From assembly GCA_021324115.1 (NCBI GenBank), contig JAJPJS010000021.1:1-39142 (forward strand): a DNA stretch of 39,142 bases. The letters run 5' to 3'. A model generated the notes under the pieces. That model ran no database searches and had not been told where the DNA came from. It saw only the letters and a program-made list of their open reading frames with translations. Source of the stretch: Nitrososphaerota archaeon. GTDB taxonomy: Archaea > Thermoproteota > Nitrososphaeria > Conexivisphaerales > DTJL01. The translations under genes and the position numbers were made by a program. Positions 23,507 through 38,761 of this stretch are shown piece by piece. Within the stretch, counting starts at the first letter, position 1. Each line of letters opens with the position of its first letter.

Positions 23507-23926
23507 AAGGCACCTCCGACTTTTATACTTCCATCCGCGCCGAACAAAAATACGACAAAACACAATTTGTCAAGATTTGCTCTTATCGAATCCGCTAATC
23601 GATTGTCTTGAGAATCATCTGGAAGGGCAATCCCTACGGCGACATTTTCATTCTGGCGTTTGGAAAGATATTGAATCAACTTCAACAAGACGCTCGCCAA
23701 AGTGATTCTCTTTCTGACTCGAGGTGAATTCCCTTCCATGCAGCTTTGAGCCCATTTTGGAGCTCGTCTCCCCTTCCGCTTCAATGAGCAGTAATCTTCC
23801 GGTTGGTGAACGCGCACTGACATCAATCCCATGTTGAATGATGTCGGCTTTCTTGATGATGTTGTTGTAGCCATTCTCTTCTAAGTACTTGATAGCGAGT
23901 GTAAAGACATTACTTTCAGTAAGCAT
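23503..23926 (-). pseudogene. restriction-type endonuclease with a one-base frameshift
   Basis: ATG 23926, with an upstream GGAG, opens a frame with HGIDVSARSP and RLLLIEAEGETSS, a D...ExE-type PD-(D/E)xK nuclease core, then REFTSSQ. The sense continues in the next frame as LASVLLKLIQYLSKRQNENV, then VAVGIALPDDSQDNRL and LDKLCFVVFLFGADGSI, ending at 23503. Removing one base from the AAA at 23699-23701 restores a single frame of about 140 residues across the junction. The product would be a compact DNA nuclease, translationally coupled to the M48 peptidase (TTGA). A sequencing error, a recent mutation or programmed slippage would each fit. Confidence 0.65.
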
Positions 23927-23988
23927 GTCTCCTATCTCCTCAAATGGCCATTAGGAATCTCCATTGCCCATCCTTCGACGCGTAATCC

Positions 23989-23997
23989 TCAAATATA
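23989..23997 (+). promoter_or_regulatory. TATA box of the Dpd-like operon
   Basis: AAATATATC lies 21-29 bases before ATG 24018, near-ideal for an archaeal leaderless transcript. It is the only clear promoter seen for the operon running to 35185. Confidence 0.6.
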
Positions 23998-24017
23998 TCA
24001 TCTACTTGATTAAAGGT

Positions 24018-24206
24018 ATGATTTATGTTGTGAGAGCAGGGGAGCACGGCCGGCTGTTTTCTGAATTCCAGAAAAAGAATGTGGTGGCTATAGGGTGGAA
24101 CTCCGTAGGCGATCTTTCGAATGTCTCTTCGCTAAACGAAATCAAGGCCCTGTTGAGGAAGGCGTTCCCTCGCCACGTCTTGATTCCAAATTTGGAGGTA
24201 CGCTGA
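24018..24206 (+). pseudogene. truncated N-terminal domain of a restriction-type protein
   Basis: The 62 residues start MIYVVRAGEHGRLFSEFQKK and continue VVAIGWNSVGDLS. This is the conserved N-terminal domain that usually precedes an Mrr-like or other nuclease domain in predicted restriction proteins ('VVRAG..G.....F.....VAIGW'). Relatives run on for well over 150 residues; this one stops right after KAFPRHVLIP. ATG 24018 is chosen from the TATA box at 23989-23997. It heads the Dpd-like operon and lies 22 bases before dpdA. It is either a remnant of a lost effector or a minimal regulatory version of the domain. Confidence 0.5.
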
Positions 24207-24228: not shown

Positions 24229-25260
24229 ATGCACACTTCTAATCTGCTATTTTGGATTGTGGAAAACGATAATCCGATCGAGCGAAATCGCTCTGCAGAC
24301 TATATCATGGACTCGGCGATAAACTATTACAATTATGATAATCCTCATTTACCATACACAGCTGGACAGTTATTCCTGGATAACGGAGCCTACACAGCCG
24401 CCAGCCAAAATCTCAATTTGGAAGTCGACAGAATCGTGGCAGTACAAGAAGCTATTTGGCCAAATAAGACGATTCCACTCGACTATCCTTTGCGTCCCGG
24501 GATGGGCCTATCCGCCATAAAGAAGAATTGGGGTAACACAAAGAGAAATATAATGTACTGGCAGGAAAACACACGTCTTAGCAAAAGGCTCGTTGCACCT
24601 TTGCATGCATGGGATAAAGAGTCTTTAAAACGGAACATAGGATGGTTACAGAAGTATGCTGACACAGACTTGTTAGCAGTAGGGAGCTTGGTGAATTACA
24701 ACGAATTTGGAGGATATTTTGGGGATCGCCAACCCCGAAGAGAAACTATTGATTTGCTAACACTTGCTGTCCAAACCATTAATAAAGAAAGCGACTTCAA
24801 GGTACACCTTATGGGCTTTGGTGCATCGCCTTTGACTCTTCACTTGGCCTACTATATGGGCGCTTACAGCACGGACTCCTCAGGATACAGAAGGAAGGCT
24901 GCTTATGGTAAAATAGTGCTTCCTGGGAGTGGCGAGAGATACGCAGGAAACTCGTCTGCTACCTTCGGATTAACCATGTACACACACAGAGACTTGGATT
25001 TGCTAAGCGAATGCCGATGTCAAATCTGCAGAGCCAACCCTGATGTCCTCTGGTCGAGTTGGCGCGCGCGTGCAGCGCATAATGAATTTGTTATGAAGCT
25101 CGAGGCTGCTAGAGCTGACGCGTTACTTGCTCAAGGAAGAGACGCATATGCTCTTTACTTGGAAGACGTTTTCTCGCGTTCTTCCTTACGATATTTGTGG
25201 AAACACACCAAGGAAAGGGTGAGGTACCATCGGATTTCAGAGTACTTGGTTGGAAGATGA
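24229..25260 (+). CDS. dpdA: DpdA-like DNA 7-deazaguanine transglycosylase
   Basis: Predicted base-exchange enzyme of the tRNA-guanine transglycosylase (TGT) fold. In the Dpd system such an enzyme replaces guanine in DNA with preQ0. The 343 residues carry FLDNGAY (D51, in place of the TGT 'DSGGF'), IPLDYP (D85), LLAVGSL (149-154, TGT 'GLAVGE'), HLMGFG (193-198) and TDSSGYRR (D216, likely nucleophile). The zinc site is CRCQIC with H284 (C262, C264, C267). It lacks the PUA-type domains of archaeal TGT and is shorter than bacterial TGT, which favours a DNA-acting DpdA over a tRNA enzyme. It begins a string of overlapping genes; its stop lies inside the next gene. No preQ0 synthesis genes adjoin. 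A tRNA-type substrate is not excluded. Confidence 0.72.
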   Translation: MHTSNLLFWIVENDNPIERNRSADYIMDSAINYYNYDNPHLPYTAGQLFLDNGAYTAASQNLNLEVDRIVAVQEAIWPNKTIPLDYPLRPGMGLSAIKKNWGNTKRNIMYWQENTRLSKRLVAPLHAWDKESLKRNIGWLQKYADTDLLAVGSLVNYNEFGGYFGDRQPRRETIDLLTLAVQTINKESDFKVHLMGFGASPLTLHLAYYMGAYSTDSSGYRRKAAYGKIVLPGSGERYAGNSSATFGLTMYTHRDLDLLSECRCQICRANPDVLWSSWRARAAHNEFVMKLEAARADALLAQGRDAYALYLEDVFSRSSLRYLWKHTKERVRYHRISEYLVGR

Positions 25261-26521
25261 TTCTTTGGTGGAAACTGAAATCCCGAACGTGAAATCTTTT
25301 CAAAGCATATTAAATGCCCTTGCCAAGCTAACAGAGAAGGCTGTATTTCACTTTACCGCAAGAGGGCTGAATATCAGTGGTGTTGATGAAAATGATATGA
25401 GCTATTTGGAAATCACCTTAAGTCCATCATACTTCATAAGTTATTCTCACAAGACTGATCTGATGTTTACCATCGAGACAAAGAAATTGAACAGAGTGGC
25501 CCAACTTTTATCTTCAAAAGAAAAGCTATTTCTTTCTGCAGGAAACCAAGGACTCACGATTCGAACTTTAGGGCATTGGAACAGTAATTTTAGATTCGTT
25601 GCATCCGACAATAGTTTTGAAAAGCCAAGTGAAATCAAGGAATTGGATTACACGGTGCACTTCTCGCTTCCGGCTAGCCAGCTTTTTGCCGAAATCAAGA
25701 AAGCTTCTGCCATATCTGAAGAAATCACTCTAGGAGCTATTGGCGATGACTTTGTGATTAGCAGTTCAAGCGGGACCTACGAGTTTGAAACCAAACGTCG
25801 TGGTGTTAAGTACAATAGCGAAAACGAGATAAAACCATGCAAAGTCACAATCAAATCGGAACCCATTATTTGTATGAACAATCTTGTAGGAGAGGACGAT
25901 TTAGTTGAGCTTTCATTTGCCGAGGGAATGCCACTTAGAATTATATTGAACCGAGCGAAATTAATACGAATAGTCATACACTTGGTGAGTAGTCGTGCGA
26001 TGGAATCACTTGAAAGGAAATTCGAGGCGGATTCTCTCCCATCGTTCCCAACCACAAGGTTCTTCCCGTTTCTGAGCTATGTTTCAAGCATTCCGAAAGG
26101 TATCTCTCAAAATGAACTCACGTCAACTCCATTCGAAACGGAAGGACTGAATTACTCGAAGATAGCTATCTCTCTCGGTTTCGCAGAACGAATCTCGGGC
26201 ACGCTAAAACTTACGAGGTTCGGAAATAACTTTCTGGACTTATACCATCAAAACGAATCACATGCGAAGCTCATGCTTCATGAAATAGCAGAAAAGCGTT
26301 GTGTGGCTTACCGGCTTGTTACTAGAGAGTTAATGAAGCGGCCTATGACGTTAGAGGCGCTCGTCGATCAACTTGATGCTCAAAAACTCAATAATATGTT
26401 GGAGGACATTGACAGGACAGACTTGGCTATCATGCTCGGTTTAGCTACGTGGTGCGGCGCAATCAACCGAAAACTGTCATTATACTACTTCGGTACACCG
26501 TTCAGAATTGTGGGTGATTAA
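25250..26521 (+). CDS. PCNA-like sliding clamp with an extra C-terminal region
   Basis: Residues 10-245 follow the PCNA plan of two similar halves. The first runs FQSILNALAKLTEKAVFHFT, ARGLNISGVDENDMSYLEI and a strand YFISYSHKTDLMFTIETKKL. The second runs VHFSLPASQLFAEIKKASAI, FVISSSSGTYEFE and, near the end, LVELSFAEGMPLRIIL, the position of the conserved PCNA 'LSFGNDMPLKL'. The remaining 180 residues, absent from PCNA, contain winged-helix-like segments (YSKIAISLGFAERISGTLKL). PCNA trimers tether enzymes to DNA, so this may recruit or activate the operon's other proteins. TTG 25250 overlaps dpdA by 11 bases; TTG or GTG a few codons later are alternatives. The assignment is by pattern, not alignment. 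Confidence 0.65.
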   Translation: MEDDSLVETEIPNVKSFQSILNALAKLTEKAVFHFTARGLNISGVDENDMSYLEITLSPSYFISYSHKTDLMFTIETKKLNRVAQLLSSKEKLFLSAGNQGLTIRTLGHWNSNFRFVASDNSFEKPSEIKELDYTVHFSLPASQLFAEIKKASAISEEITLGAIGDDFVISSSSGTYEFETKRRGVKYNSENEIKPCKVTIKSEPIICMNNLVGEDDLVELSFAEGMPLRIILNRAKLIRIVIHLVSSRAMESLERKFEADSLPSFPTTRFFPFLSYVSSIPKGISQNELTSTPFETEGLNYSKIAISLGFAERISGTLKLTRFGNNFLDLYHQNESHAKLMLHEIAEKRCVAYRLVTRELMKRPMTLEALVDQLDAQKLNNMLEDIDRTDLAIMLGLATWCGAINRKLSLYYFGTPFRIVGD

Positions 26522-28901
26522 TGTGACTCTTGAAGGGCAAAATACTTCGGTGGCACACTTCTACAATCTTGCCGAGATTCCCTTTGAGCCAACTGGTGCT
26601 GCGACGGAAAAGTATCCATATGTTGCGCCGAAGAAGTTCAGTGTTATCGAAGAAAAAATGGATGAAGTTGTCAATGAGAAGAAACTGTACGTTGTTCTTC
26701 TCAGAGCTCCCCAAGGTGGGGGCAAAACCGCAACAGCATCTGAACTGAAACGAAGGGTTGAAGCGAAGAAGTACGTCGGCGGAAAAGCCGTGGCGATAGT
26801 TAATAGGCTACTTGACCTTGATTTCGCACACTATGCCTCAGACTTCATTGAGCAAACGATACCACTGCTTCCCGAGTTCAAATGGGGGAAGTACGAAGGG
26901 AAGACCTCTCCTGGCGAACTCAAGAACGCCACGGTTTCTGCGCTCAAAAGGTTGGCCATAGATTACAAGTTGGTTGTTTGGGTAATAGATGAATTCGATA
27001 TCTTGGTAGACTATCCCAAGGAGAAGCAAAGTCAATTTCTTCAGATACTTCGAGAAATCATTGATGAACTCTCTAATGAAAGGCTTCCAATCCTATTCAT
27101 CATGTCTCACACGGAGAAATCCTCAAAGGAGTTCGAGAAACACCTCCGGGATATCCATGGTCCGCTTCAAAGCCGCGTTGTAACTGCCCTGGACATTGGC
27201 TATTCTTACAGCGAAGTCAAGGCCATAGTCGCAGCGAGGCTGCGCTCTGTTCGCAAAGATGAACAACCCTATAATTCTATCGAGCCATTCACAGAGGACT
27301 CATTGAAGGAACTGTACAACCTTGTACTCGCGACTGGTGGGACCGGAGAGCTCAACGACTTTAGATTGTTCGAGCGTTGCTGTTACTTTTCCATTCTCGA
27401 AGGAGTCCACAAAGGACAGAAACAGATTCTAAAAGATACGGTGCAAGAAGAATTCCAAAACCAATTGAAGCTGTGGGCAAAACCTGAACCTGACGAAAAA
27501 CTATCTCTCCCACTGCGTTCGGACAGAAACAATATCCTTGCAGGGACTCTGATGATGCGTAATGAGGCAATACTAAAGGGGTTGCTGAAGGGACTAAAGC
27601 TCACGGAAGACCAAATAAGCGAGCTTCTCGATGTAAAGACACGCGATCTAGGAGATTTGGCAGGGCATGTGCATGTCGGCGCCTTGCAATGCAGCGCCCA
27701 CCATAAACCGACCGATAAGTGGGTTTCAATTGCATGGGTTCTCGCTGCGAAAGAAGAAGGACTGATACTTCCTGATGATATTATGGAGATTAACGCGACG
27801 GCCGGAACGATTCGGGGTGAGGCCACGAGCTACGTGAACTTGTTGATAGTGAGTTATGTTTCGGAGTTCGACTTGGATACTTCTCAGATGACGAATGCGG
27901 ACCAAGTAATTCGAATATCATCGGACACCGCACGGGATTTGACTGGACTTGGTTTGGAGTCTGCCACCAAGGAGGACACAGATCTACTTCGGAAGAGTTT
28001 TGATTCCGAAATTGCCGTAGTGGTAAGACACATCTTGGAAATTAGTACTAGGGACATTACAAAGGATGTTACCGAAAGCGTTCAGCATCTTGCCATAACA
28101 CTGAATTTGATCCACTCTGCTGGTTCAAAGTTAACGAAAGAATCACTCAAAGACGAAAACAAGAAGCTATTTCGTTCTGGCAGAGTCCAAGATAGAAATA
28201 TCACCGACTTGATTTCACTTGGGTTTGCGAGGGAGGAAGGGACGCAGATAGTTCCTACTGTACCTAAAGCGCTATACTATCTTGATCAGCTACTGCGCAA
28301 AGAAGGCCCCTTAAAGCCCGAAGCAGTCCAAAAACAGTTCGGGCAAAACTCCGAGGCAGTTATCGGCATATCTAAGAAGCTAGGTTTGGTGAATATCGAT
28401 GATAATGGGGTAATCAGTCGCGCACAAATAGACAAAGACCTTGATGAACTTATCAGTTCAACAAAGGCTATCCTTTCTTCCGATGCCAAAAAGACCTTGG
28501 ACGGGGAAGAGGCAGACTTGATTGTCAAAGCCGTCGATAAAACGAGTTCAGACTCGATAACTGGAAACATTGTGAGATCAGCTGCTCACTTGTTGCTCCC
28601 TCAATTTAGACAAAACTTGGGGAAACTCTCAAGCCCAGCTACCGCAGAAAAAAAAACAGTTGAGCCTTCGATTCCTCAATCTAGCACGAAACCAACTCCT
28701 CCAACCACTGTCGTTCGAGACACTCTGAAGTACGACCCAACAATGTTCGAGAAAGCAGTAATCACCATTATCGAGGGCAGGGGTCAACCCGTAACGCTTG
28801 ATGAACTGAAGCAGGAGCTCGCTGGGTTAGGATTTTCGTACGATATCAATCCAAAGATACTCGGCATGATCATACAGAACAAATTAAAACTGGCGGCTTG
28901 A
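26508..28901 (+). CDS. AAA-type ATPase of the Dpd-like operon
   Basis: P-loop ATPase of 797 residues. Walker A is APQGGGKTA (about 67-75) and Walker B VVWVIDEFD (156-164), followed by a sensor-like strand LFIMSHTEKS, the layout of ORC/Cdc6- or STAND-like AAA proteins. An N-terminal FYNLAEIPFEPTG motif, found in many ORC-like ATPases, precedes it. From about 330 on it is helical with winged-helix-like units, a charged linker near 720-740 and a final small domain. It corresponds in position to the DpdH-type ATPase of bacterial Dpd operons. The start is TTG 26508, GTG 26514 or GTG 26523; it overlaps the clamp gene's end. The tail overlaps the next gene (TTGA). Confidence 0.75.
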   Translation: MWVINVTLEGQNTSVAHFYNLAEIPFEPTGAATEKYPYVAPKKFSVIEEKMDEVVNEKKLYVVLLRAPQGGGKTATASELKRRVEAKKYVGGKAVAIVNRLLDLDFAHYASDFIEQTIPLLPEFKWGKYEGKTSPGELKNATVSALKRLAIDYKLVVWVIDEFDILVDYPKEKQSQFLQILREIIDELSNERLPILFIMSHTEKSSKEFEKHLRDIHGPLQSRVVTALDIGYSYSEVKAIVAARLRSVRKDEQPYNSIEPFTEDSLKELYNLVLATGGTGELNDFRLFERCCYFSILEGVHKGQKQILKDTVQEEFQNQLKLWAKPEPDEKLSLPLRSDRNNILAGTLMMRNEAILKGLLKGLKLTEDQISELLDVKTRDLGDLAGHVHVGALQCSAHHKPTDKWVSIAWVLAAKEEGLILPDDIMEINATAGTIRGEATSYVNLLIVSYVSEFDLDTSQMTNADQVIRISSDTARDLTGLGLESATKEDTDLLRKSFDSEIAVVVRHILEISTRDITKDVTESVQHLAITLNLIHSAGSKLTKESLKDENKKLFRSGRVQDRNITDLISLGFAREEGTQIVPTVPKALYYLDQLLRKEGPLKPEAVQKQFGQNSEAVIGISKKLGLVNIDDNGVISRAQIDKDLDELISSTKAILSSDAKKTLDGEEADLIVKAVDKTSSDSITGNIVRSAAHLLLPQFRQNLGKLSSPATAEKKTVEPSIPQSSTKPTPPTTVVRDTLKYDPTMFEKAVITIIEGRGQPVTLDELKQELAGLGFSYDINPKILGMIIQNKLKLAA

Positions 28902-29920
28902 TAAAATCTTTGCAGCGCCTAAGAGTTGACAAATATCGGAAATTTCCACGGGCTTATGATTTAGGGAATGTAGGGCGATACCTCGAAGTCTTGCACGATT
29001 GCCCGATACCCCTAAGGGAAATCGAAGGGAGAAAATTGCAATTATCGCTGGCGCATGGAAAGATTGCCCGCGAAACGGGGAGTCAAATCCTTCAGTGGAA
29101 GAGAAAAAAAGGCTTAGAGAATGCTGACGAAAGCGAGTATCGGTACCTCCTACGGGACTTGGCTATCGTAGATGAGCGTAATCTAAGCGACGAATTTGAG
29201 AAGGATTTGCCAATCGGTGGAGACGGTCCACCCATTGGAGCCTTGGTTTCCCACTCGTCCAAAGGCCGACTGTACTATCTTAACGATTTGGGCGAGAAGT
29301 TATATCAATATTACAGTAGCGACAGGCCAGCATATCAATCAATGCTTTTCTGGTTAATCTTACGTAACCAATCGTATTTACCGTTGATTCAGCAAGTGAT
29401 CCTTGATAGGGAAAGCTATCATGGGAGAGACCTAAGAGAAGTAATGCAGACAAGTGATTCAACCAGTGTTAATTGTGCTTTACAATGGTTGAGATACTTC
29501 GGCATTGCCAAGTGCAGTCGGCCAAGTCAACGAGATGGGGATTCAAAAGCCCACCGGTCTAGCTGCAAACTAGGGGTTGGGACTCTCGGTTCCTACTTGT
29601 TGGCCGCTACCATTCTTGAGATCAATCAGTTCTATCGAAAGGGAGTGGATTATTACATTAAGGAGATCGAAGAACAATTGAATGAAACTTTCTCTCTTAA
29701 TCCATCATCAATCGATTTCGTCGCAGCAGTAGAGACGATTTTTCGGTATTGTCAACCTGTCGTCGAAGGATACGCTTCAAGCAGAGGAGACATCACCTTT
29801 CCTAATTTCCCCAAGATTTCGATTGTTAGGTTCGAAGACAAAATCCCCCTTTCAATCTTAATGAGAGTATCAAGGATAAATCTTCTCCGGCTAACGAAAT
29901 ATGCGAGGACAAACACATGA
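28898..29920 (+). CDS. winged-helix-like protein of the Dpd-like operon
   Basis: Unrecognised 340-residue protein. It shows repeated helix-turn-helix-like segments, such as SYHGRDLREVMQTSDSTSV followed by a helix ALQWLRYFGIA, and a long helical C-terminal half. No nuclease, ATPase or membrane motif is seen. It starts at TTG 28898 overlapping the ATPase stop and ends in an ATGA overlap with the helicase gene, so it is part of the coupled operon. By position and size it could be the counterpart of DpdG or DpdI, whose functions are themselves unclear. It may act as a DNA-sensing adaptor. Confidence 0.65.
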   Translation: MIKSLQRLRVDKYRKFPRAYDLGNVGRYLEVLHDCPIPLREIEGRKLQLSLAHGKIARETGSQILQWKRKKGLENADESEYRYLLRDLAIVDERNLSDEFEKDLPIGGDGPPIGALVSHSSKGRLYYLNDLGEKLYQYYSSDRPAYQSMLFWLILRNQSYLPLIQQVILDRESYHGRDLREVMQTSDSTSVNCALQWLRYFGIAKCSRPSQRDGDSKAHRSSCKLGVGTLGSYLLAATILEINQFYRKGVDYYIKEIEEQLNETFSLNPSSIDFVAAVETIFRYCQPVVEGYASSRGDITFPNFPKISIVRFEDKIPLSILMRVSRINLLRLTKYARTNT

Positions 29921-32433
29921 GTGCATCTAGCGAGCAAGAAAACGAGGTATTGCGCAGTATCGAAGAGATTGAAGCCCAGAATACACGATTGGGTCGTTAC
30001 GACTTCATTTCGGAAAGTTCTTTATCGCAAGCAACTGGGATAGAACCCGGCAGGCTCTCAGAGATACTTACTTCGCTGCAGACCAGAAGAATGGTGATTT
30101 GGGACAAATCTACAGGAGTTCGAAGCAGAACTGGGCATATATTATTTGCCCTTCTCAATTCAGAAGCAAGAAGTAGAACTCAGCCGGCGTTACGAAATGT
30201 CTCCGACCTGAAATACATCAGGTATGTCAAACAGATTCCAAAATACGCTATTGAGCTTAGTGACTCTGTAACGAACATCAAGCTTGACGAAATTTTACAC
30301 TTCAGCCGGCTAGAGGCTCAATCAGGTGCTGTGGTCACAACCGCGCTGTCCGCAATTGCCAGTAGGTACCCGAGAATCAGCCAGTTCCAGCTGAATTCGA
30401 CCGTCCATATACTGCAAATGCTCATCCACTCCCAAGATGATTCTGGTCTGGTGCTTGTGGCGGATACCGGAGGAGGTAAGTCTCTCGCATATCAGCTCCC
30501 TCTTCTTCTTTGGATTTTTACCAAGAAAGTAGATGCATATATACACAAGAAGCGACATGTCAATTGCTCAGCCCTACTGGTATTCCCAAGAAATGTTCTA
30601 GCTCAGGACCAAGCAGAGGATCTCGCCTCTCTTGGTCAAATCATCGACGAACGTTTTGACAGACTGCCCCTCCCTTCGGAGTTCAAAGACTTCCTTAAGC
30701 TACGCGTGAAGAGAGACTACGGCAGCGGAACGAAAGATCTGCAGACAAGACTTGCAGAGGTGTACGAAAGCGATCCTGACATCATCATTACGAATACGGA
30801 AGCTATGAAGAAGCGTTTGATGAATCCCATTTCTCACAAGGTGTATCGTGAAGGTGTTGACTTGGTCCTTTACGACGAGGTTCACCTTTACAGTGGCTTG
30901 CACGGAGCGTTCGTCGCGGGGTTGAACGCCAGGTTAAGAACCGTGTTGCCCCGTTCACCGGCGTTCGTTGGCATGTCGGCCACCATCGCAAGGCCGGAGA
31001 AACATTGCCAGAAGTTATTCTCAATTCAGATAAGACCGACGAAGATTAGCGATCGGGAAGACATCCTCGAGAAGAAAGTCATCGAACATCATGTTGCATT
31101 AAGACCGAGACCCGGAAGACCACCACTCGGTGTGGCGATTGATGCGACTTCTTGTTTGCTTCACAACCGTCGTGATGGCATTTCGGGTTCAAGGAGTGCA
31201 TTAGTAGAAGAAAGGCCCAAAAGTATTAGCTTTTCAGATTCACTTGACACAACTTCTAGGTGGACTTACGATCAAAACGACGCTGAATTCTTTGAGCCAA
31301 GAACGGTCCCGTTGACAGATTTCAGGAGGGGCTACCCTTCATTTTTCAGACCTGCCGCCAAGCAGGGCGTTAATCCCTACTTTGGGGAGCATTGCGTCTC
31401 CTGCCATGAAGGTCGGGAAGTAATCTGCTCTAATTGTGAGCACTATCTTAGGGGAGGGTGTTGGTGGTTTTCCCAAGACAGTGGCGACCCAGGATCGTGG
31501 ATTCGCGTTTCCGGTGATCTCTACGTGCCAGATGATTGTGTCAGGTCGAAACGGCTGACCGCCCAAGAGGTCCAATCTGAACGTGGAGGCAACGTCTACG
31601 ACCTCTTCACGATAAGCGGAGTACATGCCGGCTCGAACTTCGTACGGGTGGATTTACCAGGCGACAACATCATTGCTACTGGAGTATTGGAAGTGGGAGT
31701 GGATTTTAGGGGCATAAAAGAGATTATCATGTCTGGTGAAATACAGTCTCCAGCGAACTACAAGCAGAAGTCAGGAAGAGGTGCCAGGGAAGGAAACATG
31801 GAGGATGGACTGTTCGTGCTGACAATAGTGCCACAATTACCTCTGGCGAATTTTTACTATCGGCACTTTTACCGCTTAGTAAACCCAACTCTAACGCCGG
31901 TTCCACTAGAGCCATCGAACCCTGATGCGGTAGCATCTCATGCCTTCGCAAGTGTGCTGGACTACTTGGCCATGCAAGGTATCGACATCTTCAATATCAT
32001 TGGGATCAAGGTTGACGAACACGCTTTAGAAGCACAGTTCGACCGGGCGCTCGAGTTCATTCGCAGCGAAAGAGGAAACATAGAGGCCCACGTGATGAGG
32101 TTTCTTAGGATTGTCGATTCGAGCGATAAATCGATTGCCTCGGAAGCCGTCAATCACGTAGAGAGGCTCCTCTTTGATCTATCTGAGAAGGTGACTTTGG
32201 AAGGAGAAACGCGGAAATTCGTAACTTGGGTATTTGTTGGCGCACGTGACGGGCACATTATGAACGCGCTCGAGGAGAAAGTGAGAGGCGAATATGACAG
32301 TCTGCAGGGATCCGTCGAGACCACCCTCAGAACGGAACGACAATTCAGGGAAAGTCTCACCAAGCTACAAGACTATCTGAATGACCTGGGTGGTGATTAT
32401 TCTGCTATGTCTGCCAAACTCCGAAGAGAGTGA
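29917..32433 (+). CDS. DEAD/DEAH-type superfamily 2 helicase (DrmA/DpdJ-like)
   Basis: Helicase of 838 residues with an N-terminal helix-turn-helix-like segment (about 25-65). Motif I is ADTGGGKS (182-189), motif Ia LLVFPRNVLAQDQA, motif II YDEVH (319-323) and motif III GMSATI (352-357). A zinc cluster of four cysteines (CVSC 493/496, CSNC 504/507) precedes motif V TGVLEVGVDF (about 588-597) and motif VI QKSGRGAREG. This architecture, split from the DUF1998 protein that follows, matches DrmA-DrmB of DISARM and the helicase (DpdJ) of Dpd. It should translocate on DNA for restriction. The ATG overlaps the previous stop; the end overlaps the next gene (GTGA). Confidence 0.85.
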   Translation: MSASSEQENEVLRSIEEIEAQNTRLGRYDFISESSLSQATGIEPGRLSEILTSLQTRRMVIWDKSTGVRSRTGHILFALLNSEARSRTQPALRNVSDLKYIRYVKQIPKYAIELSDSVTNIKLDEILHFSRLEAQSGAVVTTALSAIASRYPRISQFQLNSTVHILQMLIHSQDDSGLVLVADTGGGKSLAYQLPLLLWIFTKKVDAYIHKKRHVNCSALLVFPRNVLAQDQAEDLASLGQIIDERFDRLPLPSEFKDFLKLRVKRDYGSGTKDLQTRLAEVYESDPDIIITNTEAMKKRLMNPISHKVYREGVDLVLYDEVHLYSGLHGAFVAGLNARLRTVLPRSPAFVGMSATIARPEKHCQKLFSIQIRPTKISDREDILEKKVIEHHVALRPRPGRPPLGVAIDATSCLLHNRRDGISGSRSALVEERPKSISFSDSLDTTSRWTYDQNDAEFFEPRTVPLTDFRRGYPSFFRPAAKQGVNPYFGEHCVSCHEGREVICSNCEHYLRGGCWWFSQDSGDPGSWIRVSGDLYVPDDCVRSKRLTAQEVQSERGGNVYDLFTISGVHAGSNFVRVDLPGDNIIATGVLEVGVDFRGIKEIIMSGEIQSPANYKQKSGRGAREGNMEDGLFVLTIVPQLPLANFYYRHFYRLVNPTLTPVPLEPSNPDAVASHAFASVLDYLAMQGIDIFNIIGIKVDEHALEAQFDRALEFIRSERGNIEAHVMRFLRIVDSSDKSIASEAVNHVERLLFDLSEKVTLEGETRKFVTWVFVGARDGHIMNALEEKVRGEYDSLQGSVETTLRTERQFRESLTKLQDYLNDLGGDYSAMSAKLRRE

Positions 32434-34619
32434 ATCAACCCATGAATAGCGACCAATTGTCGGAAATGCAGCAGTTTCTAAATGAGCTAAAAACCAAGAT
32501 CAGGGTAGATTCGAATATCTCAATAGAGAAAGTTGGGGACTTGTTCGAGAGTATTCGTAACTTGGAGTCCGCTATCAGCGAGTACCGGACCGCAATTTCG
32601 CAAGATGTCACACCAGATCTTGCCACTGTTGAGAGGCTTCGTCGAAAGTTGACTTTGATAGGTGCTATTCAAAGCATCCAGAACCCATCATATTTTGATG
32701 AGTTTGCATCTACCTTGGCTGAGCATCCGTACTCACTCCCAAAGGCTCTCTTCGATCCTCAAGGTAGGGAAATGGTAACGATAGATTTCCCCGGCAGTCG
32801 ATCGGATCAACAATTCCACAAGGTGAGAATGGACCTTGCACTGGGAATGCTTTACCCGGGATCGTTCACTTACAGATATGGACAGCCGATAAAGGTGGAA
32901 ACAGGTCGCTTCTCACAAAGATTCATAGCAAACCTTAGAATGCACACACTTAGCCCTGATCCAATATTCAAGATGAAGAGAGATGGCAGAATAATTGACG
33001 TTTACAAGCCCATCAGACTCAGAACAATGCAGGTCGTCGATAGAAACCCATTCATATGCAGGAACTGTCTCTCGATTTCTGGCCTGGATGAAGGCTGCTC
33101 GCATGCGCCTCGGATAAAACAACCTCGAAAACTTCCGTCTTCATCAGCGGTTACAGCAAATCAAGAGCTAGAAAGGCAAACAGAAGGCTCTGTGGCGCTC
33201 AGGGCTCCACTGAGCACCGTTATCACTTCAGTCAGTTTCTTGGAGAGATTCAAGGTCGGTCAAGCAGTGCTTGGTTTCGAGAGATCTGCCTTCAGACATG
33301 TCACCATCGTGGACTACGATCCTCCAATAGGCATGATCTTGGAAACGAAAGGAGTGGCCTTCGCCATCAACATACCTCCCGGTGTACTGGACCACCTCAG
33401 CAATATACCAATCCTGGTTCGGGACGTTCTGGCACAGTTACTAGCACACAAGTTGATAGATTCATTCTCTAGAAATGGAATGCCAAGCTACTATCTCGAA
33501 CCAATCCTTTCTGGGGTGATTTCTTCCTTGGGAATGGGGCAAGGCTCAAAGGACGTGACATCGGTTCTAAACACATTCTCATCAAGCAGCTGGGTCGAGA
33601 ATGCGATTCAGGCCACCTTGGCCGAGGGTGCCAATTACTACGAACGCTTTGATGTTCAAGAGCGTAGGTTACGAAGCCTATTCGAGTTACTCTCGCAGCA
33701 ATCGATTGAATTACAGACTATAAAAAACGAGATCAAGAACAGGCTCCTCCATTCGCTGGCGCACAACTTGTTAATCGCAGGATGCGTCACTGCGGGTTGC
33801 CTCCCATCCGATCTCGAATATCTGATATCTGACAACGAAATAGTGCTGTTCGATTCGGTGGATGGAGGAAACGGTTCCTCAGCGATGATTTTTGATTTCA
33901 TCAGCTCAAGAGACTCATTCAGTCTGACTGATGTAGAAGAGCCAACAAAAGAGCGAACTTTCAGGCCAAAATACTTCGATGAGGCATTCGCTGAGTTGAT
34001 GTTACCATGCCAACAAGGGGTATCCGAAAGGATTTTCCACCGCCAACTGCCCGTTCCTACACACCAAGAAATCAGCAGACGAATAACAGCGCTTGAAAGA
34101 CAACGGCAAGCCTATTCAGATGCCTACAAACAAATTTCGCAGATTGGGGTTGAAAACTGCTTCATCGCTTCGCTAGGATTCCATCTTCCGTTGGAGCTAG
34201 GAATGGATGTTCAAGCGGCGGAGAGATTCAAGGAGTCTGCAAGTGTTTGCCTCCATGGTTGCCCAGACTGCTTGGTTCTGGGAAATCGGTGCGAAGAAGG
34301 CGGATTCATGGAGAAGTTCAGCTTGAGTAAGGCTGCATTAGACGAGTATTTCCGATACATGACGAAATCTTATGTGCTTGATTACCGAGCGGAAGATTCG
34401 GTCATTGATTCTACTCTGAACACTCAAGGAGTCGCGATTCTCAGCATGCAGCTTACTCGCCCGGCAGAAGAAGGGTCTACCGATAAATTAGATGCGCGCA
34501 TTGCAGAATTTCGGGGGAGAAGATTGGGAGAACGATTCATCAAATTCGCGGGCTTCTGGGTCGATTCCCCGATCACGAGTAACGATGTCCGATACAGTGC
34601 CCTGTTGGTGCTTGTCTAA
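32430..34619 (+). CDS. DUF1998 (DrmB-like) protein
   Basis: Partner of the helicase, 729 residues. The N-terminal third is helical. A central zinc-type cluster CRNC...C sits near residue 208. The DUF1998 domain contains LLHSLAHNLLIAGCVTAGC (about 447-465), then IVLFDSVDGGNGSS and a C-terminal cluster CLHGCPDC (about 607-614) plus a later C, probably binding metal. DrmB in DISARM forms a complex with the DrmA helicase and aids DNA recognition. In bacterial Dpd the equivalent region is in or beside DpdJ. The start is GTG 32430 (GTGA overlap) or ATG 32442; the stop overlaps the next ATG by one base. All expected DUF1998 motifs seem intact. Confidence 0.82.
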   Translation: MNQPMNSDQLSEMQQFLNELKTKIRVDSNISIEKVGDLFESIRNLESAISEYRTAISQDVTPDLATVERLRRKLTLIGAIQSIQNPSYFDEFASTLAEHPYSLPKALFDPQGREMVTIDFPGSRSDQQFHKVRMDLALGMLYPGSFTYRYGQPIKVETGRFSQRFIANLRMHTLSPDPIFKMKRDGRIIDVYKPIRLRTMQVVDRNPFICRNCLSISGLDEGCSHAPRIKQPRKLPSSSAVTANQELERQTEGSVALRAPLSTVITSVSFLERFKVGQAVLGFERSAFRHVTIVDYDPPIGMILETKGVAFAINIPPGVLDHLSNIPILVRDVLAQLLAHKLIDSFSRNGMPSYYLEPILSGVISSLGMGQGSKDVTSVLNTFSSSSWVENAIQATLAEGANYYERFDVQERRLRSLFELLSQQSIELQTIKNEIKNRLLHSLAHNLLIAGCVTAGCLPSDLEYLISDNEIVLFDSVDGGNGSSAMIFDFISSRDSFSLTDVEEPTKERTFRPKYFDEAFAELMLPCQQGVSERIFHRQLPVPTHQEISRRITALERQRQAYSDAYKQISQIGVENCFIASLGFHLPLELGMDVQAAERFKESASVCLHGCPDCLVLGNRCEEGGFMEKFSLSKAALDEYFRYMTKSYVLDYRAEDSVIDSTLNTQGVAILSMQLTRPAEEGSTDKLDARIAEFRGRRLGERFIKFAGFWVDSPITSNDVRYSALLVLV

Positions 34620-35185
34620 TGGTTCATGTTACAGAAGAGAATGTTGAGATAATAGATGTTGACCTACTGATTCAAGAGTGTCTAAGAGCCAGCGAAGGAA
34701 AAGAGGCCTTCGCATATATTATTTCTCCATTCATTTCAGATTTTATACTTTCGCCTTCATGGCTTTCGTTTGTTAGTAACATAATCGAGGTTGCTGACAT
34801 CGATAGCTATGTGGATCTTGTCGGCTTGCTGCGTCATCATGGGGTCGATGTTAGAGTCGTTACTAGGTCTCCAGCGGACCTTCGCACAACAACCATTTCA
34901 CGTAAATTTATAGATAAGCAAGAAAGAACACTTGCACAGCTGGCTAAGATGGGTTGCGAAATTAGGACGAATGCATCCTTACACGCAAAGGCGACATTGA
35001 CCAGCGGGGGCGTTCTCGCAGGGTCCTTTAACCTTACGCAGTCTGGCAGGTCTTTGAACCTTGAAGCAGGCTTCTACTTTCCAAACACTTTTGGGATAGA
35101 GAAGAGGGAGTATGAGGATAAGCTAGAATGGGCGCAACGATTATTCTCCGAGTCTGTTCCGGTCAACAACTCTCGTCTAAGATGA
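34619..35185 (+). CDS. phospholipase D-like (DrmC/DpdK-type) protein
   Basis: A 188-residue protein of the phospholipase D superfamily. The single HKD-type motif is LHAKATLTSGGVLAGSFNLT (H and K, then the downstream Asn of the 'GSxN' element). Upstream is a typical strand VDVRVVTRSP. With one motif per chain it would act as a dimer and, as in DpdK and DrmC, is a candidate nuclease or phosphodiesterase. It is the last gene of the operon: ATG 34619 overlaps the stop of the DUF1998 gene, and a 389-base gap follows. It has no signal peptide or membrane segment. Confidence 0.8.
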   Translation: MVHVTEENVEIIDVDLLIQECLRASEGKEAFAYIISPFISDFILSPSWLSFVSNIIEVADIDSYVDLVGLLRHHGVDVRVVTRSPADLRTTTISRKFIDKQERTLAQLAKMGCEIRTNASLHAKATLTSGGVLAGSFNLTQSGRSLNLEAGFYFPNTFGIEKREYEDKLEWAQRLFSESVPVNNSRLR

Positions 35186-35574: not shown

Positions 35575-36205
35575 GTGAACCCACAAACTGAGTTTTTCTG
35601 TGCCATAAGGTCTCCAGTTACTAGGGAGAAATACGGAAAGAAGCTGAATCTTTCCTGAAGCATATGGGAATTGAAGGATTAAAGTTCGAAGAAAGAGCTA
35701 GAAACTTCACGAAAAAGGCTAGGGACACGCAATGGACGACCATGATAATAAACGACTACTTGAGGTCCCAGAGGGAGAGGGCAGAAAATAAGGAGATAGC
35801 AGACTCGTCTGTACCTAGCTATTACGGGCCGATTAAGCTCTTTCTCAAAATGAACGATATAATATTGAACTGGAAGAAGATATCAAGGAGAATACCTAGA
35901 GGTAGTAGCCATGCAAAAGACAAGACACCAACCAAGGATGAGATAAGGAAAATACTAACCTATCCGGATAGGAGGATGAAGCCTATCGTGCTAATTGTAG
36001 TATCTTCAAGAATAAGGGTTGGTGCACCGGATTACCTGAACCTTGAAGACATAGTCCCTGTCGAGAGGGAGAGAAGGGTAATAGCACCTAAGATGACATT
36101 CTACAGGAGACCAATGATGTGTATGAAACCTTCATCTCACCAGACGCCTACGGTGCGCTCCAGGAATACATCGACTTCAGGAAGTCGAAAAATTGTGCAC
36201 CATAA
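35575..36205 (+). pseudogene. decayed thaumarchaeal-type tyrosine recombinase (integrase)
   Basis: Three frames in sequence reconstruct an archaeal integrase. Frame one, from GTG 35575, gives CAIRSPVTREKYGKKLNLS. Frame two, from about 35648, gives FLKHMGIEGLKFEERARNF, YYGPIKLFLKMNDIILNWKK, DKTPTKDEIRKILTYPDRR and the first catalytic Arg region SSRIRVGAPDYL. Frame three, from about 36105, gives NDVYETFISPDAYGALQEYI and then a TAA at 36203. Such integrases from Thaumarchaeota run on another 100 or more residues to the R-H-R-H-Y active site, which is missing. Two frameshifts plus the truncation make it inactive. It marks an old integration event, probably of the neighbouring island. Confidence 0.75.
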
Positions 36206-36820
36206 ATATATGAATAGCTTTAGCAAACAAACAGACTCGGCGGATGCACCGAAAGTCGTATGAGCATACTGTAGATAGTGCGACTTTTCAAAACATCACC
36301 TTTAAAATCGATTTTTGGTAATGTTGCTGATTCTGCAAAATATGGTGAACGTGCGATTGCTGATTGTGAAGGGTCGAGGTGAGGATAAAATTAGACTGAA
36401 ATGCGTGTGCTGTCAGACTGGTATTGCTAAATGTGTCAGTTAGCCCGTCCGTTAGGTTTCAGTGGTCACGTCTATCTTACTCCATGTCGGCTGTTTTCCC
36501 TGAACATGCTAGCATAACAAGCGCCAAAATCCCAAGAACTGCACCAACAATCATACCCAAGACCTCAACAACATCAGCCAAGCAAGAACAAAGAGAGGTT
36601 GATAGAAGAGGTAATCGAGAAAGTATTTGTGTGAGTTAGTTGGGAACCGACATCTGTTATTTCATTTAGGACATGATAGTCGATGAAAACAGGAGCATTA
36701 ACTGTAGATATTGGAATTATGCTGCGATTTTGCATATGATCTTACCCGATCTCTGCTAGTCTTACCCACGTTTTCATCATTCCCACAACCAAAGAAATAA
36801 CCACAGCGACCTTCCTGTCC
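36206..36820. other. gene-poor stretch after the integrase remnant
   Basis: AT-rich and mostly featureless. A TTTAAAATC at 36301-36309 could be a TATA box for the small ORF at 36342. The frame 36424-36639 is Ser/Thr/Pro-rich and not convincing. No tRNA, repeat array or hairpin of note was seen. Confidence 0.5.
36342..36443 (+). CDS. possible 33-residue cysteine-containing peptide
   Basis: ATG 36342 opens MVNVRLLIVKGRGEDKIRLK, followed by CVCCQTG and a further Cys before the stop. A TATA-like TTTAAAATC lies about 36 bases upstream. The four cysteines could bind metal, or this may be the end of a lost larger protein. No Shine-Dalgarno. Low confidence. Confidence 0.22.
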   Translation: MVNVRLLIVKGRGEDKIRLKCVCCQTGIAKCVS

Positions 36821-37262
36821 CTATCCTGGTAGTTTTATAAGTTGATTGAATCCCTTTACTAGTTTTTTGCGGAGCTCCTCCCCAGAATTTGCATGAATAA
36901 GTTTTTCTCCATTAATTGTCGGAGGATTTTTAGGAAAGACAGTTCTATCCCTTTTCCCTATTTCGCAGAAAAACTTGTTTGATTCATTCCAATTTTTGTA
37001 ATGCTTTTGAAGAATGTCTGCGCACCCCCTTAGCTGTTCAACAACTTTCGTGTTTCCTCTTGATTTCATCTCAACTAGCAGTATGATGTTTTTCAAACCC
37101 ACCCTTCTAATCAGCACGTAGTCGCACCGGGCGTTCGTCCAATGTATTAGATCACTATAACATCCATCGATGCAGTAAATCTCAAAATCATTGTTTAGAC
37201 AGCTGAGTTCATCAGGACAATTGTTGCATTTTTCTATGGAAGGATCGAAACGAAACGATCAC
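36821..37262 (-). pseudogene. nuclease-like partner of the OLD-type ATPase, one-base frameshift
   Basis: GTG 37262 overlaps the ATPase stop (GTGA) and opens IVSFRSFHRK. After the five-A run (37229-37233) the sense moves one frame to CNNCPDELSC, YCIDGC, then ARCDYVLI and IILLVEMKSRGN (D...ExK), KVVEQLRGCADILQKHY and a C-terminal helix. Deleting one A gives one protein of about 145 residues. It resembles small proteins often encoded after AAA ATPases: a Cys-rich start followed by 'KCDYLLI....VELKG......QL'. Without the shift, no usual start precedes 37117. It would be the DNA-cutting half of a two-gene defence system. Confidence 0.6.
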
Positions 37263-38761
37263 CTGTCTAGAGCGTAAGAAAGATAGACGTTCTCGTCGTA
37301 AATCTCTTCGCTTATAGTATTGAATTCTGTAATCGAAATGCCTTCTTGTGAAGGTCGAACCTCTTCGGTTAACGTTCCTTCATCAGGTTGCTTGAAAAGG
37401 TAAACTGTACACTTTTCTGGATCAAGTGCTTCTTTGTCATCTATATCGAGTTTGGTACGCTTATTCCGTTGCACTTTGCTTGCCACGATAAGGTTGCTCA
37501 GCTTGGACAAAAGGTAATCACTATGGGTTGTTAGGATAATGTGCACACCCGCATTAACTAGACGAGCAAGAATCTTTGCCAGTTCTCTTATTGCTGCGGG
37601 ATGAAGGTGAGCCTCTGGCTCCTCAATAATTAGCAAATCTTTTTTAGATACGTAGTAGCGCAAGAATAGAACTAATGGCGATATTTCTCCTACCGAAGAC
37701 GCAGCTTGGAGTATGCTTATTTCATGCCCATTGTCAACATATACGAAATCTGCATGTTGTGGTTGGACCTCCTTGACCATGATACGACCACCAATGGTAT
37801 CCTTTTCGAGTTTATCCGCGATTTTCGATATTTCGTCTTCCTTACCTGCTTTGTGTGCACGGAATCTGCGTTGCAAGTCAGGTATTTGGAGAAGTTTCGA
37901 AATGAATTCAGAGTTAGCAGGACTTAGAGGAGGAAGAGACATGCCACGAATTGTCAAGAAAGGAGCCCCTGCAACCAGAGTTGCGGCCAACACTCTATGA
38001 CTCTGCATTACACCTGCCCTAGACGCAGGCAAATAGTACAATTGTTTGCCGCCCGGAGATAACGGTTCCGCTAGCTCACCCGCCAGTTCTTCAGCTATTA
38101 CTATATATAATGGCACAGTATGAAATGGCTTTCGCGAACTCCCTCGTGTTCTATTATTCTGAAGTCGTTGGAGAATTCGGTCGAATACTGGTTGAAGGTT
38201 GAAAGAAAAACTAGAAAACTCAACATCTCCATTCTTGGAAATCTTAACGTCGAAATTTAGCGAATCCGTTGTCAAGATTATTCGAGCGTAATCGGCTCCC
38301 CATTGTATGATCTGGCCAAGGGTCGTTCCCCCGAAGAATCTTGGTAGTTCCTTCTTAATTCCATTAGAAAGTTTCTTTTTCAAATAATTATTAAACTCTT
38401 CTTGGATCTTCGGAAAGGCATTATTTTTTAGGAACTGCATAAGTTCCAAGTTCCCCTTTTCCGCACCTTTTCTCATGCTCTCCTTCTCTATTATCTGTTC
38501 TTCTATTCGTTGGAGTTCTTCTATTTGTCTGAGGGTAAGAAATCTAAAGGTCAAATATTCATCTGGCACGTGACCCATCGCTGGGCCTACAATCATGTCG
38601 TAGATCGCCTTTATCAACAGGGTTGAGTACGATTTGCCTGTGTTGTTTTTCCCAATGAATATGGTCAATGGTCTTAGGGATAATTCAGACTTCCGTATAG
38701 GTCCGAAATTCTCCATAGATAATATGAATTTATCAGCCATCGCAAGTAAGTTGATGGCCAT
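37259..38761 (-). CDS. OLD/ABC-type AAA ATPase
   Basis: ABC-like ATPase of 500 residues with an SMC/RecF-type start: FILSMENFGPIRKSELSL, then Walker A IGKNNTGKS (36-44). A helical insertion follows (about 60-330). Walker B is LLIIEEPEAHLHP (about 379-391) and the switch strand is HIILTTHSDYLLS, as in OLD-family and Gabija-like GajA ATPase heads. No Toprim domain is visible, so the cutting activity must be elsewhere, probably in the overlapping downstream gene. ATG 38740 (residue 8) is a good leaderless start, with a CTTATTA about 26 bases upstream; ATG 38761 gives the longer form. The C-terminal 70 residues are acidic. Confidence 0.82.
   Translation of the reverse strand: MAINLLAMADKFILSMENFGPIRKSELSLRPLTIFIGKNNTGKSYSTLLIKAIYDMIVGPAMGHVPDEYLTFRFLTLRQIEELQRIEEQIIEKESMRKGAEKGNLELMQFLKNNAFPKIQEEFNNYLKKKLSNGIKKELPRFFGGTTLGQIIQWGADYARIILTTDSLNFDVKISKNGDVEFSSFSFNLQPVFDRILQRLQNNRTRGSSRKPFHTVPLYIVIAEELAGELAEPLSPGGKQLYYLPASRAGVMQSHRVLAATLVAGAPFLTIRGMSLPPLSPANSEFISKLLQIPDLQRRFRAHKAGKEDEISKIADKLEKDTIGGRIMVKEVQPQHADFVYVDNGHEISILQAASSVGEISPLVLFLRYYVSKKDLLIIEEPEAHLHPAAIRELAKILARLVNAGVHIILTTHSDYLLSKLSNLIVASKVQRNKRTKLDIDDKEALDPEKCTVYLFKQPDEGTLTEEVRPSQEGISITEFNTISEEIYDENVYLSYALDR

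Follow-up and report, generated by a model that had tools for sequence, protein, structure and literature searches.

The second gene of a seven-gene archaeal operon encodes, as profile, alignment and fold comparisons confirm, a predicted sliding clamp of the PCNA type that carries a C-terminal module (423 aa; 25250..26521, + strand). The operon lies in a 39,142-nucleotide contig of a Nitrososphaerota archaeon (JAJPJS010000021.1), hereafter the window. Here and in three other genomes, the clamp gene directly follows a gene for a DpdA-like tRNA-guanine-transglycosylase (TGT) homologue, beside effector modules of two types. Sliding clamps dedicated to replication or to checkpoints are known; we found none described within a restriction-modification system. 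We lean towards the view that the protein is a dedicated clamp that would tether the TGT to DNA, as part of the modifying half of a 7-deazaguanine restriction-modification system in archaea.

The clamp, its C-terminal module and the operon

The clamp reading frame opens with a TTG codon at 25250 (alternative starts are TTG at 25265 and GTG at 25268) and ends with the stop codon at 26521. Its PCNA domain, delimited by profile, alignment and model, spans residues about 8-245 (25271..25984, + strand) and consists of two halves. The protein scores 25.7 bits against Pfam PCNA_N (cut-off 20.3), a threshold passed also by two of its orthologues, and 76 bits against the NCBIfam PRK01115 clamp models (E=3e-21, residues 12-233); overall, full-length clamp models give scores of up to 76-86 bits. 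A phmmer search of the PDB with the window clamp retrieves PCNAs at 2.6e-9, and a profile of three orthologues (from the window and from genomes G267 and G317) matches Pyrococcus PCNA in the PDB with an E value of 1.3e-25 over positions 12-245. In the reverse test, a profile of four housekeeping-type archaeal PCNAs picks up all four operon clamps (E 1e-17 to 4e-4). Within the PCNA domain, the segment LSFAEGMPLRI (residues 221-231; 25910-25942, + strand) lines up, in an alignment with 18 PCNAs (housekeeping, paralogous and viral), with their late motif of the LEFSSDMPLKI type.

In the AlphaFold2 model of the window clamp, pLDDT is about 70-85 for most of residues 1-245, and every Foldseek match of this model is a PCNA (best E 3.6e-16, TM 0.77 by target length). 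The underlying alignment comprised the window protein and two viral PCNAs, which biases the model towards PCNA, so that the clamp assignment is carried by the sequence evidence; a single-sequence model was discarded (pLDDT 31). The PDB profile, PCNA_N and the model point to a two-domain clamp fold along the full length. An earlier note, made from the letters alone, had read a two-halved PCNA pattern at residues 10-245, had taken LSFAEGMPLRI for the conserved late motif and had proposed comparing the predicted monomer with PCNA; both readings are upheld by these comparisons, and the predicted fold is that of a clamp.

The extra C-terminal part comprises ~165 residues (about 258-423), rather than the about 180 claimed earlier, and two orthologues share it at 35% and 27% identity. 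A module of the winged-helix type was delimited there at about residues 262-423 (26033..26518, + strand) with the help of hhalign and of stand-alone relatives in the phylum. Its winged-helix character, likewise proposed in the earlier note, is suggested by weak matches to Pfam AAA_assoc_C (E 0.14 and 0.02, below cut-off) and by homology to HTH-like stand-alone proteins, and no model of this part is confident. Other members of the phylum encode these stand-alone relatives (about 225-260 aa; E 1e-7 to 1e-11), and one family of them adjoins a helicase that we take to be of the XPB type. At two loci (L079:11145-14779 and L081:6717-10354), relatives of the module lie near an XPB-type helicase and also near a protein of ~100 aa that has, close to its N terminus, a PTLFDFI motif reminiscent of a PIP box.

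When the module profile was widened with the stand-alone relatives, hhalign matched it at 92% probability over 150 columns to a profile of four proteins, of which three, of ~299 aa, come from haloarchaeal loci, where they are encoded between TGT and AAA, and the fourth is a similar protein from G285; when the latter is left out, the probability is 72%. The candidate identification of the module as DpdG was rejected (<1% in the profile comparison). By these comparisons, the window clamp looks like a PCNA fused to a component that elsewhere is separate within a TGT-HTH-AAA triad, and the homology to the triad protein links the clamp with the transglycosylase part of the system.

The seven genes of the operon are tightly packed on the + strand, each touching or overlapping the next. 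The first encodes the TGT homologue (343 aa, 24229..25260; Pfam TGT 26.1 bits, just under the 26.3 cut-off). Its residues D51 and D216, presumably the active-site aspartates, and C262, C264, C267 and H284, which we take to be zinc ligands, are shared by all five TGTs of its clade. Downstream of the clamp are encoded an ORC/Cdc6-BrxD-like AAA ATPase (797 aa, 26508..28901, + strand; AAA_22 E 5e-4, BrxD E 0.0055 to 0.0098, all below cut-off); a conserved protein without assigned function (340 aa, 28898..29920, + strand), for which no family was found in Pfam, PADLOC or NCBIfam; the RecA part of a DpdJ-like DEAD/DEAH helicase of the YprA family (838 aa, 29917..32433, + strand; PADLOC DpdJ 145 bits); the second half of this split helicase, of the MrfA Zn-binding type (729 aa, 32430..34619, + strand; MZB E 8e-4, below cut-off); and a DpdK-like phospholipase-D-type (PLD) nuclease (188 aa, 34619..35185, + strand; PLDc_2 37 bits, DpdK 38-43 bits). 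In the HxKx4D motif, the Asp is missing from both the PLD protein and its counterpart in G267 (HAKATLTS), whereas Paenibacillus DpdK has it (HAKGIISD). The AAA protein is not favoured as a dedicated clamp loader because AAA genes are present also in clampless systems.

The operon is located in a mobile or defence neighbourhood. The same contig encodes an N6 methylase with an HsdR_N domain (349-2865), a TraD/TrwB-like coupling ATPase (8924-11533), an XerA-like recombinase fragment (35664-36263) and an OLD/AAA_15-type ATPase (37259-38761). Just upstream of the TGT gene, short restriction-enzyme-like fragments on both strands (23648-24206) are possibly the remains of another defence gene.

Recurrence of the clamp beside one transglycosylase clade

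The clamp gene directly follows the TGT gene in four genomes (the window genome, G267, G317 and G174). In G267, from the same phylum and another class, the complete seven-gene order is kept; amino acid identity to the window proteins is 53% for the TGT, 26% for the full-length clamp, 33-35% for the AAA ATPase, 30% for the 340-aa protein, 43-45% and 35% for the RecA and Zn-binding halves of the helicase, and 49% for the PLD protein. G317 has the same TGT and a clamp of 437 aa, followed by an HTH-type protein, a large AAA protein, NurA and HerA; just upstream of the pair, in divergent orientation, are genes for QueC and a VUT-type transporter. In G174, the TGT gene overlaps the clamp gene by 4 bases, and the clamp is very divergent (255 aa, 25.6 bits to PRK01115) and lacks the C-terminal module; after it come an ArcS-like DUF5591 protein, HerA, AAA and a NurA-like protein for which no family match was obtained. 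Thus, the TGT-clamp pair is constant while the effector modules differ (helicase and PLD in the window and G267, HerA-NurA in G317 and G174), so the clamp appears to travel with the transglycosylase. The expectation that the same clamp would turn up beside other archaeal dpdA-type genes, rather than be absent from all related operons, is borne out by the full synteny in G267 and by the pairs in G317 and G174.

The window TGT is 54, 51, 47 and 49% identical to those of G267, G317, G174 and G423, respectively. Five close TGTs, four with a clamp and a clampless one from a virus-like contig, form a clade with 100/100 support. The operon clamps, which are 22-27% identical to one another, also group together (91/88), although their long branches make this grouping only indicative. 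The clampless member of the clade (L042:11095-12114) is 49% identical to the window TGT; its virus-like contig carries a polymerase-like gene, and there is no clamp within 20 kb of the TGT. Three archaeal operons combine a DpdA-like TGT with HerA, a NurA-like protein and AAA (L043:7513-17793 in G317, L078:903-10852 in G174 and L046:1420-10306 in G029), and two of the three contain an ArcS-like DUF5591 protein beside the TGT.

The TGT-clamp pair is rare, with four loci known. The genomes searched with TGT profiles numbered 400 in the window's class, 257 in that of G267, 40 in that of G174 and 398 in a phylum-wide sample. All open frames were scanned in 22 stretches, including Dpd (Paenibacillus), BRIGADE-type (Halorientalis, Halobaculum, Natronosalvus), STSV1 and other TGT loci; clamps were present in only these four loci, and none was found in the Dpd, BRIGADE, viral or other TGT loci scanned. 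Nor were relatives of the clamp found in viral contigs, phages or plasmids, and pattern scans of genome contigs with the clamp and the helicase, a weak test for divergent proteins, yielded none. A 334-409 match in G009 was dismissed as chance; its contig carries glycosyltransferase-type genes.

A normal housekeeping PCNA is encoded separately in the window genome, on contig 8; the operon clamp is thus not the replicative clamp of the host. All four clamp-bearing genomes have such a separate housekeeping PCNA, and all four encode elsewhere a genuine tRNA-modifying arcTGT (450.9 bits in the window genome), distinct from the 343-aa DpdA-type homologue, so the clamp and the TGT of the operon are both distinct from the housekeeping copies. 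The window genome contains also a third PCNA-like gene, on contig 17 (L003:1387-2244; 84.7 bits to PRK01115), which groups with the divergent PCNAs of G033 and G043. A QueC over cut-off, as a source of preQ0, is present in three clamp-bearing genomes, in G317 next to the pair; the fourth, G174, has none over cut-off. Phage DpdA is known to insert preQ0 into DNA (PMC6884629). The separation of the window TGT from the tRNA enzyme and its place in restriction-type operons suggest that its substrate is DNA as well.

What the clamp may do

Alignment of the four operon clamps with 18 other PCNAs reveals that two motifs known as parts of the PIP-peptide pocket, the MDPSHV loop and the C-terminal YLAPR, are replaced in all four operon clamps and retained in nearly all of the comparison proteins; in three operon clamps, VD[PE]xD[FM][CS]Y stands in place of the loop. 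The four helices that align with the ring lining carry a net charge of +3 to +6 in the operon clamps, whereas most housekeeping PCNAs have -2 to +1 there. With the lining helices net basic and the PIP pocket lost, DNA contact looks kept and partner binding looks changed; as a sign of a trimeric ring round DNA, the basic lining is only suggestive. In the partner proteins encoded in the operon, PIP boxes are isolated hits, none of which is conserved between orthologues (the candidate QLPLANFY in the helicase was rejected because its Q is lost in G267), and the TGT has neither a PIP box nor another visible clamp-binding motif. The search for PIP-box peptides in the neighbouring proteins that the earlier note had recommended thus turned out against a PIP-box mechanism: because the clamp's own pocket is replaced and no partner has a conserved PIP box, any private contact must differ.

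Under the reading that we prefer, the PCNA domain would trimerise around DNA, and the fused C-terminal module would hold the DpdA-like transglycosylase. The ring, probably loaded by the host RFC, would keep the enzyme on DNA and allow processive exchange of guanine for a preQ0-type base, possibly just behind the fork. Self DNA would be marked first, and an exchangeable effector module, the DpdJ-like helicase and PLD nuclease in the window and HerA-NurA in G317 and G174, would then degrade unmarked DNA. Coupling of the modification to replication is plausible because clamps are normally loaded at primer-template junctions and nicks. The earlier note had named both the transglycosylase and the restriction complex as possible clients of the clamp; we favour the former, since exchange of the effector module leaves the clamp next to the TGT. 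The note's further suggestion, the sensing of invading replication forks, belongs with the less probable effector-side role discussed below. Against this preference, related TGTs function without a clamp in other systems and on the virus-like contig, and at three of the four loci the remaining defence genes begin right after the clamp gene, which means that the two roles cannot be told apart by adjacency alone. The small number of loci, the missing module and strong divergence of the G174 clamp, the absence from G174 of a QueC over cut-off and the lack of a visible clamp-binding motif in the TGT count against it as well.

The loss of the PIP-pocket motifs and the high divergence of the operon clamps could also mean that the PCNA domain no longer encircles DNA and serves as a trimerisation or docking scaffold that joins the TGT, the C-terminal module and the AAA ATPase, in line with the presence of the module as a separate gene between TGT and AAA in BRIGADE-type loci. 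We consider this arrangement unlikely, if worth keeping in mind, given that the ring-lining helices are still net basic and the full clamp length is conserved.

Similarly improbable, in our estimate, is a role on the effector side, in which the clamp would bring the helicase-nuclease or HerA-NurA onto replicating or nicked invader DNA or would sense invader forks. The clamp shares its operon with the effectors, an AAA or HTH-type gene comes next after it in three of the four loci, and archaeal nucleases are known to use PCNA as a platform (PMC4929162). However, the effector modules vary between the clamp loci while the TGT is constant, no effector has a conserved PIP box, and related effector sets are clampless (G029, G653, Dpd and BRIGADE).

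Heterotrimeric PCNAs exist in some archaea (PDB entries), which, together with the third PCNA-like gene of the window genome, brings up an action on the host replisome, where the clamp would form mixed rings with the housekeeping PCNA or compete for RFC and would couple or arrest replication during attack. We give this scenario little credence: there is no sign of co-evolution with the local PCNAs, the operon clamps group with one another and not with the host PCNA, and the context is not toxin-like. Finally, the high divergence and the TTG start might be taken to indicate a chance neighbour or a decaying paralogue without a role in the system, but this is very improbable in view of the gene order and overlapping or abutting genes common to two classes, the full-length conservation and the recurrence beside the same TGT clade.

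If the clamp indeed serves the transglycosylase, it would provide a way for a base-exchange enzyme to be processive, possibly in a replication-coupled manner, it would explain how 7-deazaguanine systems without DpdB could keep self DNA marked, and the pair would define a portable TGT-clamp cassette. The broader proposition, that a defence system with its own PCNA couples base modification to replication, with the TGT-clamp cassette plugged into unrelated effector modules, is advanced tentatively, with more doubt than confidence.

Relationship to known systems

The window clamp resembles PCNA (PF00705, PRK01115) in its two-halved structure, late motif, basic ring-lining helices and predicted fold, and differs from it in the replaced PIP-pocket motifs, the C-terminal module and the defence-type operon context. 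With Dpd, the window operon shares the TGT homologue (DpdA), the DpdJ-like helicase and the DpdK-like PLD nuclease; unlike in Dpd, the helicase is split into two genes and the operon has its own clamp. DpdJ and DpdK are the best-matching NCBIfam families but fall short of the equivalog level (124 of 800 and 43 of 100 bits), and PADLOC and NCBIfam detect no match to DpdB, C, D, E, F or G among the operon proteins; by these matches, the system is classed as Dpd-like rather than as a Dpd system by definition.

BRIGADE, the haloarchaeal Dpd-ARMADA hybrids (PMC12458937), has TGT, an HTH-type protein and AAA in the same order, and its HTH-type protein is homologous to the C-terminal module of the window clamp; at the loci inspected, a Zn-binding half is encoded separately after the helicase. 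In BRIGADE, however, the module stands alone, there is no clamp, and the locus includes preQ0 genes that are absent from the window operon. The window system is not a BRIGADE system, which is defined by two YprA helicases, a preQ0 cluster and a haloarchaeal host, because it has one split helicase and no preQ0 genes in the operon and is not haloarchaeal by kinship. BREX-Related Capture (BRC) with HerA and TGT (PMC12839542) combines TGT, HerA and an ORC-like AAA, as do G317 and G174, but its published components include PglZ, DUF4007 and GNAT and no clamp, unlike G317 and G174, which have NurA and a clamp. Neither the survey of the YprA family that includes BRIGADE (PMC12458937) nor the survey of BREX-related systems that includes BRC with TGT (PMC12839542) mentions PCNA or a sliding clamp. 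The statement that Dpd has no clamp accordingly holds for these surveys and for the Dpd and BRIGADE loci examined, and a search of the non-subscription full-text literature on dpdA, archaea and PCNA found no paper.

Nor is the window system a DISARM system, which is defined by the DrmA helicase and a DNA methyltransferase: the window helicase scores higher with DpdJ (145 bits) than with DrmA (51 bits), and no methyltransferase family is represented among the operon proteins. A parallel in terms of working is with eukaryotic DNMT1, which shares the housekeeping PCNA via a PIP box. In both cases, a DNA-modifying enzyme would be kept at replicating DNA by a clamp; the window operon differs in that the enzyme is unrelated and the predicted clamp is a dedicated one.
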